Of a stretch of 64,000 nt of DNA, positions 30,215 through 36,976 are shown one piece after another. Made by a program: the position numbers and the translations under genes. This DNA is from a virus, in IMG/VR virus record IMGVR_UViG_3300001533_002283, positions 62,001-126,000 of that record; one strand, written 5' to 3'. The notes under the pieces are model-generated. The model searched no databases, was not told where the DNA came from, and saw only the letters and a program-made list of their open reading frames with translations. Positions within the stretch are counted from its first letter, which is position 1. Every line of letters begins with the position of its first letter.

Positions 30215-30244
30215 ATTATTGTTTATTTCCCCCAATTAAGTCAA
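30215..30244 (-). promoter_or_regulatory. Candidate promoter of gmd
   Basis: -35 TTGACT (30239-30244), 18-bp spacer, -10 AATAAT (30215-30220). Transcription would start at the ATG at 30208, i.e. a leaderless message. Confidence 0.5.
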
Positions 30245-31314
30245 GCGGAAACTACTCGCCACTCAACATCTTTGAAACAACTAAGGTCTCGCCCGCCCGC
30301 ATAAGAAATTTGTGACTGAACAGCTTGTGTTAATTCACTATAATACTCCGCATATGTTTTGCCATTACAGGGAATTTCAATGGTTTTACCCTCAATATGT
30401 TTAATCTCTTGGCCGGTTTTTTGCTTTGACTCGGCTGACGCGCTTCCATAATATCGCTTATGAGTAATCCTGCCTTTTGATTCGTGGATTCCAGTGTCAC
30501 TGTAATAAACCTTGGCATTGCCATAAATATTTTCCCCCGGCGCATCAACGCACGAGGCAAACAAACTTCCAATCATAACCATAGGGATGTTTAAATTTTT
30601 ATAAACTTTTCCGGCTCTACCTCCATAAGTATACTCTCCTTGAACACTGGTAAACCCAATAATCGCCCGCGCGATGTCCCCCGCCTCGCGAACCCCGCCG
30701 TCTAAAATAACGGGAATTTTTGCCCATTTACCCGCTTCTAGTGCCGCGCTGAACATAGGAGAACCGAATGACGTGGTGGGAAAAGTTAGGCATGCCCTCC
30801 CCGTTGAAAGCCCCACCTTCAAGCAGTCTGCGCCAGCATTTTGCAAAAACTCAACCGAATCTTTATCGCCCCAAATATTTCCCGCAATCACCTTAGTATC
30901 GGGGAGATTTTCTTTAATAAATTCAATCATATCGGCGACCGAATCACTAAACCCGTGAGCAACATCAATGCACGCGAAATTCACCCGACACTTACTTTCA
31001 GAAATATCTTTAATCAACTCTTTATCGCTCTCTTGAACGCCTACAGAGATTGAAATTAACGGCCACGCCTCCGCCCGCGCACGTTGAAGGAATTTTCGAG
31101 TATCACCAAAGCGATGATAAATGTAAAAATGATTATTAAACGCCAACCATTTACAAATATCTTCATTCACAACACTTGCCATATTACTTGGCGTTATCGG
31201 CAGGGCAAATCTATACCCACAAAAGTCAATGGATGTATCGCATTCCGAGCGAGATTTAACCACGCATTTGCGGGGAATTGAAGTGATTTGATTATAATGT
31301 AAGGCTTGAGTCAT
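30241..31314 (-). CDS. guaC: GMP reductase
   Basis: 357 residues of the IMPDH/GMP reductase family, with the bacterial GuaC pattern: SRSECDTS (~21), LPITPSNMASVV (~38), NHFYIYHRFG, AGADCLKVGLSTGRACLT with catalytic Cys ~175, DGGVREAGDIARAI, MVMIGSLFA and, at the end, ISYAGG. No CBS domains, as expected for GMP reductase. It converts GMP to IMP, allowing guanine nucleotides to be turned into adenine nucleotides. An IMP dehydrogenase function is less likely from the sequence. An uncommon phage gene, in the same block as thyX and nrdJ. Confidence 0.85.
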   Translation of the reverse strand: MTQALHYNQITSIPRKCVVKSRSECDTSIDFCGYRFALPITPSNMASVVNEDICKWLAFNNHFYIYHRFGDTRKFLQRARAEAWPLISISVGVQESDKELIKDISESKCRVNFACIDVAHGFSDSVADMIEFIKENLPDTKVIAGNIWGDKDSVEFLQNAGADCLKVGLSTGRACLTFPTTSFGSPMFSAALEAGKWAKIPVILDGGVREAGDIARAIIGFTSVQGEYTYGGRAGKVYKNLNIPMVMIGSLFASCVDAPGENIYGNAKVYYSDTGIHESKGRITHKRYYGSASAESKQKTGQEIKHIEGKTIEIPCNGKTYAEYYSELTQAVQSQISYAGGRDLSCFKDVEWRVVSA

Positions 31315-32416: not shown

Positions 32417-33007
32417 TCACCCAACCCAATTTTTCTCAAAAAACCGCGCGCACAAGTAAAGATAGTCGCTCAGTCTATTAAAATATTTCATGGTGAGTTC
32501 CATGTTGTCTAATCGCCTAGTGAGAACATGCGTCCATAGCACCCTCTCAACTCTGCGACAAATTTTTGAAGAAATGTCAAAATGGGTGGAAACTCGGTTG
32601 TGGCCGTAAATCACCCAATCAGCGGGAATGAGTGATTTATCTTCCTCAAAAACATTCACCCTTCTTTCTAACTCCTCTAGGTTTTTCAAAGTGAGTGTAG
32701 GAAAACTTTTCACATAACGTTCCACTTTATCACTCTCACAGATGATTTCCCCCATAATGGTAATAAGAAGTTTTTGAATATCCTCTAAGTGGCCCGCCAC
32801 GTCATAAGCCACGGGACAATCCTCAACAGAAAGATATAAACTCTTGTGGGATAAAAACTCGCGGGTTTCTAATTTTGATAATCCAAGATAGGAACTTAAC
32901 TCGTCAATTACTCCAACCATTTCAATTCGATAGTCTGATTTTGCCACGCGGGTTCCGTAGAGGAGTGATGTGGTGCCGCTGTCACCGGTTTTAGTTGCGA
33001 TTTTCAT
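32417..33007 (-). CDS. pduO: PduO-type cob(I)alamin adenosyltransferase
   Basis: 196 residues, normal for PduO-type ATP:corrinoid adenosyltransferases. The N-terminal TKTGDSGTTSLLYGTRVAKS (5-24) is the ATP-binding signature; VIDELSSYLG follows, and the C-terminal half has RRVERVLWT and MKYFNRLSDYLYLCAR. The enzyme transfers the adenosyl group of ATP to cob(I)alamin, making adenosylcobalamin, the cofactor of the class II ribonucleotide reductase encoded three genes upstream. The start overlaps the [2Fe-2S] protein gene by 17 bases, indicating coupled synthesis. No other cobalamin gene is seen, so the phage must use host corrinoid. Confidence 0.9.
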   Translation of the reverse strand: MKIATKTGDSGTTSLLYGTRVAKSDYRIEMVGVIDELSSYLGLSKLETREFLSHKSLYLSVEDCPVAYDVAGHLEDIQKLLITIMGEIICESDKVERYVKSFPTLTLKNLEELERRVNVFEEDKSLIPADWVIYGHNRVSTHFDISSKICRRVERVLWTHVLTRRLDNMELTMKYFNRLSDYLYLCARFFEKNWVG

Positions 33008-33176
33008 AGGTGTGAGTGTTGTTTGTGGGGGTGTTAACTAATTGATGAATATAGGGAATACACAATTTGCATTTTGTTGCGCAAATTTTATTTTGTTGTA
33101 GGTTAGAGAGGGTTTCCCCTTGGCGAATCATTTTGGCGATTTCTTCCAAGGGGATGTTGTGGCAAATACAGAACAT
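32991..33176 (-). CDS. BFD-like [2Fe-2S]-binding protein
   Basis: 61 residues. C3-x-C5 at the start and C36-x-x-C39 in KCKLCIPYI match the CxC...CxxC cluster ligands of BFD-type domains, with the usual helix-loop (IPLEEIAKMIRQGETLSNLQQ) between. Such domains carry electrons or bind cluster-containing partners. Here the gene lies between nrdJ and the adenosyltransferase gene and shares bases with both neighbouring genes. Cob(II)alamin must be reduced before adenosylation and ribonucleotide reductase needs electrons, so a role as electron carrier in one of these steps is an inference from context. Confidence 0.75.
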   Translation of the reverse strand: MFCICHNIPLEEIAKMIRQGETLSNLQQNKICATKCKLCIPYIHQLVNTPTNNTHTYENRN

Positions 33177-34228
33177 TAGATTTTCCTCCCAATATCCTCT
33201 ATCAAGTCATAAAAATCTCCCAAATTAAAATCTTCTCCCTCTGCGTATTTATGCATATTAATGTAATTCATGTAGTGGTTCATATCCCCATCATGAGGAA
33301 AATAAACGGCCTCCTTATATCCAAAATCTCTGCTTTCTTTTGACTTAAAATTACTCTCCCATTTTTCGACATATTTGTAACCCGCTGATTTTATTTTCTC
33401 TCTAATATCATTGGTTTTACTGTATAATTCGCCAAACTTTTTGCCAGAAACGGCGTTTACCCAATGAGGTTTATAAAACTTAGGATTCCCGTGAAAATAA
33501 TCCCCATGAAATTGATAAACCGTCCTAGTTTTGGAGTCGAAACCATCAACAACGTATGTTTTTTCTCCAATTTTAAGTCTGTATTGCCGGATTAAACCAT
33601 CTATTGCCAAACTTTCTAACCATTCGTTCTCCTTTTTTGAGGAATTCGCGACACATCGTTTACAGCCATAGCCGGCCAAATGAGCGTGTGCGGTTTGTTG
33701 AAAAACTCCGTGTTTTTTACACACGATATCAACTAATATATCCGTCCCTTTATAATCCACGAGGGAATAGTCATATTTATCCCCGTGTTTTTCTTTCGCA
33801 GCTTCTATAAACGTTTCAGTTGTCTTTTTGAAATTAGGTTTACATTTTGGGCAACCAGAGCCATTTATATGCTCTTTAATTCCTTGGTTAAATTCACCGT
33901 GTTTCTTACAAACTATTTTTATCTTTTGTTTATTATTTTTATACTCAAAAGGGGGATATTCGTAGGTTTCCCCATGAACGGATTTAATTTCGCCGAGAAC
34001 CTCTTCTAAGGTTTTAATAAAACGATTTCCGCATCTTGGACACCCCTGCTCTTGGTAGATATGACCCGCCATAGCTTGTTCAAATTTTCCGTGAACCGAA
34101 CAAATTATAGTGGTTTTGTCATGTAATCTATATATGGGATGAGCTAAGGAGTAATCATATTTTTCTCCATGAATCTCCTTGGCTTTGCCAATATAATATT
34201 CAGATTTTTCTACTTTCGGAGTCGGCAT
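33176..34228 (-). CDS. EDxHD-type (Vsr-fold) homing endonuclease with zinc-ribbon repeats
   Basis: 350 residues. Three repeats of about 60 residues each carry YDYS, IxCxxHGxFxQ and GCPxC-type segments (residues ~10-70, 72-132, 134-195), typical DNA-binding modules of this class. The C-terminal domain, with VVDGFDSKTRTVYQFHGDYF, HGNP and then GELYSKTNDIREKIKSAGY, matches the I-Bth0305I/EDxHD family with a Vsr-like nuclease fold. A selfish gene inserted between nrdJ and its accessory genes; it starts 4 bases after nrdJ and leaves the operon readable. Confidence 0.8.
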   Translation of the reverse strand: MPTPKVEKSEYYIGKAKEIHGEKYDYSLAHPIYRLHDKTTIICSVHGKFEQAMAGHIYQEQGCPRCGNRFIKTLEEVLGEIKSVHGETYEYPPFEYKNNKQKIKIVCKKHGEFNQGIKEHINGSGCPKCKPNFKKTTETFIEAAKEKHGDKYDYSLVDYKGTDILVDIVCKKHGVFQQTAHAHLAGYGCKRCVANSSKKENEWLESLAIDGLIRQYRLKIGEKTYVVDGFDSKTRTVYQFHGDYFHGNPKFYKPHWVNAVSGKKFGELYSKTNDIREKIKSAGYKYVEKWESNFKSKESRDFGYKEAVYFPHDGDMNHYMNYINMHKYAEGEDFNLGDFYDLIEDIGRKI

Positions 34229-34231
34229 ATT

Positions 34232-36805
34232 TTACCCACACTTTGATGTTCCGCAGTCATTACAAACGATGCATCCTTCAGCACGGCTCAGATTATGACT
34301 TCCACAGTTTGAGCAAGTTTCCCCATGAACAACGGTCCCATCCTTGATACATTTTTTAAGAACTCGACTTAGGGACCGAGCGAAACAAGTCATATCTCCC
34401 TCCGTTTTCTCTAATTGATGAACAATAAAAGAAATATCCGCACCGTGTCTAAGAGCGGTCGAAATCATACGGGTGAGAGCGTCCGCATTAGAATCGGAAT
34501 GCCCGTTGGTTAGATTATATTTATCTTCTCCGTTAACTAGAGAATAATTGCCACGAGAATTCTTGGTTATTTTGCCTGATGTTATAGACTTAGGAATAAA
34601 AACAACTCCATCCGGGTTTTCGTTGGTGCCGGTAAATACCTCGTAAGGCTCACCATCCATTAGCCCCACGATTCCATAGTATTTTACTCCTTTAGAAGTT
34701 AAATGTTCAACCTTGCAGTCAAGTTCCTTGGGTCGCTTGGGGGCGGTTGTTTTCTTAATTGATGCGACCACCTCTTCTTTCTTTTCTTCCTTTGAAGATA
34801 AAACGGTTGTCATTGTGCCAGCCCGATAAGTAGTAATTCCTTTTAGATAACCTGTTTTATAGGCATCTAGATAAAGGTTTTCAAATGAATCATAAGGATA
34901 ATCAGCGGGGCAATTAACCGTTTTGCTCATTGAAGAGTCAATCCATTTACCCCAGCCAGCCATATCCACAACATGTTCTTCCACCTTTAAAGAAAGAGCA
35001 GTTTTAGCCCACTCGGCGGACTGATTCCATTCGTTGCGCTCTTTGAGAAATCTAACCCCATAATCAATACACGGAACTTCCTTGGTTAATCCGCGATTGC
35101 GATCTATTTTATAAATAATCCCGTTATATTCCGCACGAAGAACATCATCAGACCCCTCCTTTGTCATTTTAAACAAGGCGGTTTCTTTGAATTCTCCCTC
35201 CCAATATTTAGGAACTAGTGGTTTTAAATTATCGGGACAAATTGGGACAATGACAGTTCTGATGTATTCTGGCATGAAGATAGGCTCTAGTCCGCCAGAG
35301 CAAATGTTGGCCAGAATGGAGGTATTACCCGTAGGCTGAATAGAAAAAAGGGCAGAATTTCTAATTCCATAGGTTTTAATTTCAGAAATCAAATCACTTG
35401 GCAACCCAATCTGTTTAAAATAATAAGAATCGGCGTGTTTTTCGGGGTCACAATCTTTGAACATCCCTTTTTCTTTAGCGAGATTAATCGACGTTTTGAT
35501 TGCGGTTTCCGTGAAAACTTTCATCAAGTCAGCCTTAATCACCTCTGCCTTTTCAGAAGCAAAGGGAATTTTCATCATGTATAGGGCCGAACCCCAGCCC
35601 ATAACACCAATTCCGATACGCCGACGATTACGAATGGATTCGGAGTATTGTTCTAGAGGGGCGTTGGTATAATCATTAACGTTATCCAAGAAACGAACCG
35701 CATAAGACACGTATTTTTTTACCTTCTCATAATCAAAGTTCGTATAATCTCCATTTAAAAGTTGGGTAAGATTAATTGAAGAAAGGTTACATACACTTGC
35801 GAAGGGCAGCATTTGCTCGCCGCAGGGGTTGCTGGCATGAATCTTGCTCTTTTGTCCTGCATAATTCCAACAGTGTGTTTTGTTGGCCTTGTCCAAAAAC
35901 AAAATTCCGGGGTCATTTCTAGTGTAAGTGGAGGACATTAGTTTGTCCCACAAGCCAAGCAAAGAAACTGTTTTATGAACAACGACGGAATAGCCCCTGC
36001 TCTTCCAGTATTCAATATCTCCATCCCACTCCTCTTTATACTTCGGGTGCTTTGTGTCAGGAAAAACTAATTCCCACCCATCATTATTTTTAACAAATTC
36101 ACTATCTCCGCTCTTTTTAGCCTCTTTTAAAGCAAGAACTCTATCCATAAACTCATCTGAAACGCCAACAGAAATATTGAACTTTGCTAGACGGCCCTCG
36201 GTAAGTTTAGCGTCAATAAACTCTTCTACGTCCGGATGCCAACACCACAAGACACCCATCATTGCGCCCTTTCGAATTTTCCCTTTCGCTTTTGAGTTTT
36301 TTGATTTAACGCCGGAACCAGAGGTGATAATTTCCGAGGACTTATCAAAAAGTTCCATATATTTTACTGCGCCGGGGGTTTCTACGCCGATACCATGAAT
36401 AAAAGAACCACGAGGACGAATAAAGGAAAAATTCATGCCCCATCCACCCTCTGATTTAAGGGTCTTTGCTTGATATAAAAGAGTTTCGATAATACCCTCT
36501 AAAGAATCTTGATCGTAAGTTGATTTCGGACCAACGAAACAATTCATTAGAGTAGTTCCTTGCCATTCAGCCCCAGCATTAGAATAAATGCGCCCACCAC
36601 AAGTTACTCTAAAATCATAAAGCGTTTCATAAAACTTTTCAGACCACTCTTTTTTAAGCTCTTCTGTTTTTTCCACGGAAGCCACGGCGTTTGCCACTCT
36701 ACGAAAAGTATCGTCAACCGATTGGTCCTTATGGTCTTTGTAAGTGCTTTTCCACACTTCTTCAGAAAACTCATCCTTAAAAATCTCAGCGTTTGTTTTG
36801 CTCAT
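34232..36805 (-). CDS. nrdJ: Class II (adenosylcobalamin-dependent) ribonucleoside reductase
   Basis: 857 residues. GGRIYSNAGAEWQGTTLMNC and ASNPCGEQMLPFASVCNLSS include the paired and thiyl-radical Cys regions; FSIQPTGNTS is the substrate-binding loop. The C-terminus ends in CSNCGSHNLSRAEGC and CNDCGTSKCG, the zinc/redox tail of NrdJ, preceded by a TSCPD-like region (ADALTRMISTALRHGADISF). It reduces ribonucleotides to deoxyribonucleotides by means of adenosylcobalamin and works with or without oxygen. First gene of an operon that also encodes a BFD-like protein and a cobalamin adenosyltransferase, with its own promoter. Confidence 0.95.
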   Translation of the reverse strand: MSKTNAEIFKDEFSEEVWKSTYKDHKDQSVDDTFRRVANAVASVEKTEELKKEWSEKFYETLYDFRVTCGGRIYSNAGAEWQGTTLMNCFVGPKSTYDQDSLEGIIETLLYQAKTLKSEGGWGMNFSFIRPRGSFIHGIGVETPGAVKYMELFDKSSEIITSGSGVKSKNSKAKGKIRKGAMMGVLWCWHPDVEEFIDAKLTEGRLAKFNISVGVSDEFMDRVLALKEAKKSGDSEFVKNNDGWELVFPDTKHPKYKEEWDGDIEYWKSRGYSVVVHKTVSLLGLWDKLMSSTYTRNDPGILFLDKANKTHCWNYAGQKSKIHASNPCGEQMLPFASVCNLSSINLTQLLNGDYTNFDYEKVKKYVSYAVRFLDNVNDYTNAPLEQYSESIRNRRRIGIGVMGWGSALYMMKIPFASEKAEVIKADLMKVFTETAIKTSINLAKEKGMFKDCDPEKHADSYYFKQIGLPSDLISEIKTYGIRNSALFSIQPTGNTSILANICSGGLEPIFMPEYIRTVIVPICPDNLKPLVPKYWEGEFKETALFKMTKEGSDDVLRAEYNGIIYKIDRNRGLTKEVPCIDYGVRFLKERNEWNQSAEWAKTALSLKVEEHVVDMAGWGKWIDSSMSKTVNCPADYPYDSFENLYLDAYKTGYLKGITTYRAGTMTTVLSSKEEKKEEVVASIKKTTAPKRPKELDCKVEHLTSKGVKYYGIVGLMDGEPYEVFTGTNENPDGVVFIPKSITSGKITKNSRGNYSLVNGEDKYNLTNGHSDSNADALTRMISTALRHGADISFIVHQLEKTEGDMTCFARSLSRVLKKCIKDGTVVHGETCSNCGSHNLSRAEGCIVCNDCGTSKCG

Positions 36806-36853
36806 AATAATATATTAAAAATAGGTATAATTTGTTATCTAACTTAGGGTCTC

Positions 36854-36882
36854 TATTTACAGGTATTAACCCGCCGAGTCAA
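36854..36882 (-). promoter_or_regulatory. Sigma70-like promoter of the nrdJ operon
   Basis: -35 TTGACT (36877-36882), 17-bp spacer, -10 TAAATA (36854-36859); leader of about 42 bases, too short for a cobalamin riboswitch. Confidence 0.65.
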
Positions 36883-36944: not shown

Positions 36945-36976
36945 AAAAACCCGCCGAGGCTAAACCTCTAGCGGGG
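36945..36976 (-). terminator. Rho-independent terminator
   Basis: On the minus strand CCCGC...GCGGG with an inner GAGG/CCTC pairing forms a bulged stem followed by TTTTT. It ends the transcript of 37002-37400 just before the nrdJ promoter. Confidence 0.7.

Follow-up and report, generated by a model that had tools for sequence, protein, structure and literature searches.

The stretch of DNA analysed here (the window; 64,000 nucleotides) is part of a 172,181-base contig of an uncultured virus with a tailed-phage gene set that includes a T4-type terminase domain, a phage lysozyme, a DNA polymerase, a DnaB-like helicase and a DNA ligase. Within the window, four tightly packed genes on the minus strand encode a class II ribonucleotide reductase (RNR), an endonuclease, a small BFD-like protein and a PduO homologue (Table 1), and the gene order and coordinates of the original prediction were reproduced. 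The first two genes are separated by a 3-nt gap. The last three, which had been described as joined by overlaps, share 1 nt between endonuclease and BFD (TAATG) and 17 nt between BFD and PduO. The claim that promoters precede and follow the operon did not hold up, given that sites of this kind are no more frequent in the region than in shuffled sequence (15 observed versus 20.2 expected). Upstream of nrdJ, a terminator-like hairpin plausibly marks a transcription boundary. We detected no B12 riboswitch or any other Rfam element within the window, and no match was obtained when annotated phages were searched at the DNA level for the operon as a whole. An IMPDH/GMP-reductase-like gene lies near the operon (window positions 30241-31314; PF00478, E 2e-34) and a ThyX-type thymidylate synthase is also found among the window's open reading frames; the phage therefore has several nucleotide-metabolism genes. 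Elsewhere in the same virus record, close to its end, a gene for a HindIII-type restriction endonuclease (L010:2795-4580, record positions 168795-170580; PF09518, E 6e-106) adjoins a DNA methyltransferase gene.

Table 1. Features of the operon and its upstream flank, numbered from the first letter of the window
Feature	Position	Strand	Length	Basis
nrdJ, class II RNR	34232..36805	-	857 aa	TIGR02504, PDB match, motifs
Endonuclease between nrdJ and BFD	33176..34228	-	350 aa	DUF723/DUF4379, phage endonuclease PHROGs
Candidate BFD-like small Fe-S protein	32991..33176	-	61 aa	PF04324 below cut-off, cysteines, AF2 fold
PduO-type ATP:cob(I)alamin adenosyltransferase homologue	32417..33007	-	196 aa	PF01923, PDB matches, residue survey
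Terminator-like hairpin, then T run, upstream of nrdJ	36950..36975	-		MFE -17.5 kcal/mol, z -3.4
Promoter-like TTGACT-17-TAAATA of the original prediction	36854..36882	-		not above chance

The class II reductase and the gene behind it

Class I RNRs have a tyrosine pair where class II enzymes have a GITxYR motif, and for the NrdJ family a requirement for adenosylcobalamin (AdoCbl) is established. The NrdJ of the window passes the curated class II model TIGR02504 (450 bits; cut-off of 400), and its best PDB match is the B12-dependent RNR of T. maritima. Its sequence carries the catalytic and redox cysteines and the class II motif, with NCFVG at 88, NPCGE at 326, VCNL at 338 and GITTYR at 656. 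By these signatures it is a class II RNR of the dimeric type that is predicted to depend on AdoCbl. A class I enzyme that needs no B12 can be mis-called in this way when its beta subunit is overlooked, as is documented for cyanophage P-SSP7 (PMC6370689). We consider it highly improbable that this happened here, given that NrdJ clears an equivalog model for class II, that GITTYR is present, that the class I beta (small) subunit (PF00268) was not found in the virus record, and that the RNR which substitutes for NrdJ in relatives of the L015 type matches a B12-dependent enzyme.

The substitute is a monomeric class II RNR of the RTPR type, which we find in the relatives L015, L282, L283, L018 and L046. 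For the RNRs of L282 and L046, the B12-dependent RTPR of L. leichmannii (1l1l) is the only PDB match, and for that of L015 the best NCBIfam model is TIGR02505 at 138.8 bits, below the cut-off of 340. The RTPR-type RNRs of the relatives have C-terminal tails with two cysteines. In several related phages, inteins are located at the catalytic cysteine (NPC) of the class II RNR (L151:2195-5722, L015:6485-9793 and L003:7986-11468); the window's nrdJ has no intein, yet an endonuclease gene lies directly behind it. Among named huge-phage records, LR756502 and LR756501 carry the two nearest relatives of NrdJ, and neither has a PduO.

The gene behind nrdJ encodes a DUF723/treble-clef endonuclease that matches phage endonuclease PHROGs with E values down to 6e-37. 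Its distribution speaks against a functional part in the operon. The gene is absent from L015 and L151, both of which have BFD; at L282 it is represented by a 45% homologue, and at L283 a different endonuclease occupies the same place. We therefore judge the endonuclease to be a mobile passenger that stands outside the function of the operon.

PduO and its linkage to class II reductases

The last gene of the operon encodes a protein that scores 118 bits against PF01923 (cut-off 24) and falls narrowly under the cut-off of TIGR00636 (98.7 bits against 108), and its PDB matches are solved corrinoid adenosyltransferases. To survey its active site, we aligned 167 homologues, comprising the viral clade to which the window's protein belongs (clade A; 14 members including the window, all of them metagenomic) and 153 other rows. 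The ATP motif TKTGD, D35/E36, RRxER and NR are invariant in all 14 clade-A proteins, and D181 is also kept. The residues whose absence would have spoken against the original prediction are thus largely intact, with one exception: at the position equivalent to human Arg186, all 153 rows outside the clade have Arg, and every clade-A member has Ser or Ala instead. In human MMAB, Arg186 coordinates both ATP and AdoCbl (PMC9262797). This position is followed in clade A by an invariant Lys, and Tyr134 and Lys148 are also specific to the clade. Cellular PduO and MMAB proteins (L. reuteri PduO, human MMAB and those of Verrucomicrobiota) have the fold family, the ATP motif and most active-site residues in common with the phage clade and differ from it in keeping the Arg.

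Because the Arg186 equivalent is lost while most of the active site is kept, adenosyltransferase activity of the phage protein is likely but not assured. The loss of the Arg throughout clade A, together with the clade-specific Tyr134 and Lys148, would also fit a protein that is no longer an adenosyltransferase and now serves, for example, as a corrinoid carrier or chaperone for the RNR. We regard this as quite unlikely, since invariant TKTGD, RRxER, NR and D35/E36 would be unexpected if the use of ATP had ceased. We also examined the position of L. reuteri PduO Phe112, where the F112A variant loses about 80% of catalytic efficiency and F112H loses four orders of magnitude; the variants cited in the review do not include Trp (PMC6257451). 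The phage clade has Trp here, and the idea that its PduO is degenerate for this reason was rejected, as the sampled cellular relatives from Verrucomicrobiota have the same Trp.

Viral relatives of PduO were gathered by profile scans, a single-protein scan having been too specific and having given none. The closest relative in public viral contigs is at L015 (58%), in a phage that has many genes around the operon in common with the window. There, BFD and PduO come after an RTPR-type RNR that is interrupted by an intein, overlapping and ordered as in the window. The original prediction had turned on whether the three genes ever recur together in related phages; RNR, BFD and PduO do so at L015, and RNR-PduO linkage is widespread. 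A class II RNR is located upstream and on the same strand in 11 of the 11 clade-A loci with enough upstream sequence, two further loci having been left out as cut by contig ends. Across all viral PduO loci this holds for 31 of 89, whereas none of the 80 best cellular relatives (mostly Verrucomicrobiota) has such a neighbour, a comparison that is not one of independent trials because related contigs were counted and because the flanks covered 5 kb for cells and 10 kb for viruses.

The independent contrasts, as judged from the gene neighbourhoods, are three: the exchange of RNR type at L015, an NrdJ-PduO pair at L129 with a 6-nt gap, and, in a second viral PduO clade, one-base overlaps between RTPR and PduO at several loci (L032, L035, L069 and L072). 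The linkage is thus conserved across class II RNR types, and given that AdoCbl dependence is what NrdJ and RTPR have in common, this supports a module for cofactor supply. The proposal that PduO provides AdoCbl to a B12-dependent RNR is in this way well supported by comparative evidence, namely the L015 exchange, the RNR-PduO pairs and the lack of such pairs among the sampled cells. Among annotated phages, the one annotated PduO ('Acinetobacter phage MD-2021a') was rejected, as it is surrounded by the chromosomal-type genes trpB, btuB and ydiU; the 254-kb record under this label (CAKLQH020000002.1; L011) resembles a bacterial chromosome around PduO. The remaining PduO matches in this collection, which are in unannotated and mostly short records, were not taken as phage PduO.

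The second viral clade is split from clade A in the PduO tree with 100/99 support, although long branches make deep placements in this tree uncertain. Near PduO and RTPR in the second clade we find a small, predicted secreted protein with conserved cysteines, present at 26 viral loci (for example, L046:9412-9864). Five members tested against Pfam gave no significant match. In an AlphaFold model of the protein (pLDDT 77), the top PDB fold is human transcobalamin (7qbe, 2bb5 and 5no0; probability ~1.0, E 0.004-0.01), the resemblance being to its beta domain. This transcobalamin-like neighbour independently suggests a B12 role for the viral RNR-PduO blocks.

The BFD-like protein

The assignment of the third protein is weak by score. 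It matches PF04324 with E 7e-4 and 20.3 bits, under the cut-off of 26, and three of the five homologues that we identified (window, L015, L151, L282 and L283/L275) give similarly weak matches (E 7e-4 to 4e-3). Four cysteines in the arrangement C-x-C...C-x2-C, with the two pairs about 30 residues apart (C3, C5, C36 and C39), are invariant in all five, as is an additional cysteine, C32. In an AF2 model (pLDDT 74), the top PDB matches are to Pseudomonas Bfd (4e6k; Foldseek E 0.33, probability 0.75). Taken together, the cysteines, the weak family matches and the predicted fold are suggestive of a BFD-like protein. The phage protein resembles Bfd in size, in the C-x-C...C-x2-C cysteines and tentatively in predicted fold, and it differs in its extra invariant cysteine, its linkage to class II RNR and its score below the Pfam cut-off.

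Iron is not needed by class II RNR. A class II RNR is found directly ahead of BFD in all five contigs, sometimes with an endonuclease between them; it is NrdJ in two and RTPR in three. PduO is present behind BFD in two of the five records, the other three of which may be fragments. BFD is therefore tied to the RNR more strictly than to PduO, and of the three-gene module as originally proposed, the linkage of RNR and PduO recurs, and the pairing of BFD with PduO is seen only in this minority. Given that the structure which the predicted fold matches best is Bfd from the BfrB-Bfd complex, and that five invariant cysteines rather than four allow for other metal centres, the protein could release iron from ferritin like its namesake or act as a metal-binding regulator, with no role in cobalamin metabolism. 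We find this unlikely, as the RNR type concerned has no use for iron and the constant location next to it would be left unexplained.

Thioredoxin is the usual reductant of RNRs, and the record to which the window belongs yielded neither thioredoxin nor glutaredoxin. Together with the strict tie to the RNR, this would fit a BFD that is the partner of the RNR itself, supplying electrons for its turnover, either to the active-site disulphide or to reactivate the cofactor on the enzyme, with PduO as a separate add-on in some phages. This seems to us somewhat unlikely. Two BFD-bearing relatives encode a thioredoxin elsewhere, which argues against a need for BFD in disulphide reduction there, and BFD accompanies two RNR subtypes that differ in their C-terminal redox tails. 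If BFD reduced Co(II) so that a phage or host enzyme could re-adenosylate the cofactor, both the tie of BFD to the RNR and the occasional presence of PduO would be explained. Where PduO is present, BFD may supply its electrons. In L282, an RTPR-endonuclease-BFD operon, the BFD gene overlaps by 4 nt with a gene for a 159-aa predicted membrane protein (L282:6837-7316) that has no confident family and is possibly a transporter.

A candidate cofactor supply for a B12-dependent reductase

Based on these data, we propose that the operon probably provides the phage with a cofactor supply for its B12-dependent RNR. NrdJ would produce deoxynucleotides for phage DNA replication in an AdoCbl-dependent reaction. 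Homology and conserved linkage make it most likely that the phage PduO uses ATP to make AdoCbl from host corrinoid, including any cofactor that NrdJ has lost or that was inactivated on this enzyme. The BFD-like Fe-S protein would most likely deliver electrons at the cobalt-reduction step, for a phage or a host adenosyltransferase, and this is the weakest step of the proposal; the endonuclease would have no role. The enzymatic activities, the electron transfer and the benefit to the phage are what we infer from the genes and their neighbourhoods. There is perhaps an even chance that the pattern is more general, and that modules for providing cobalamin have formed repeatedly in viruses around class II RNRs, in one lineage with BFD, with or without PduO, and in another with PduO and a transcobalamin-like B12 binder.

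If true, phages with B12-dependent RNRs capture, convert and recycle the cofactor and do not merely rely on the host for it. Synthesis of AdoCbl by the phage, and possibly capture of B12, would ease the constraint of a host-supplied B12. The proposal makes it testable how such phages replicate when the host or the conditions offer little AdoCbl, and a shift in the cell's corrinoid economy upon infection is among its predictions.

Phages commonly encode class II RNRs. According to published reasoning, the B12 cofactor of these enzymes must come from the host, and for lytic cyanophages it would be better to avoid B12 dependence (PMC6370689). Cobaviruses (PMC6775973) and marine virioplankton with RTPR (PMC10547690) likewise encode a B12-dependent RNR for dNTP supply; in the passages considered from these two reports the cofactor is discussed as coming from the host, and neither an adenosyltransferase nor a BFD-type gene is named next to the RNR. 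Virus-borne cobalamin genes are also described from wastewater (cobA, cobS and cobT, with one annotated cob(I)alamin adenosyltransferase; PMC11183165). These are single genes, the cobA family differs from PduO, and no RNR operon is mentioned in the passages considered from that report. In agreement with the original prediction, which knew of no phage operon with all three genes, we found no RNR-PduO or RNR-BFD-PduO phage operon and no phage cofactor metabolism of this form described in the literature searched; subscription journals and preprints lie mostly outside this literature, so an earlier description is possible.

Among cellular systems, PduS is a large flavin/Fe-S enzyme and is not BFD-like. 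In the Salmonella Pdu system (PMC2982820), to which it belongs as the corrin reductase, the adenosyltransferase gene likewise has a B12 enzyme and a redox protein that acts on the cobalt as neighbours, but PduO there serves diol dehydratase in a microcompartment, whereas the phage PduO is linked to RNR. Verrucomicrobiota account for the overwhelming majority of the best relatives that the phage PduO clade has among cells (L187-L266); scan patterns may bias this result, and the relatedness is a possible hint at the host or at the source of the gene.
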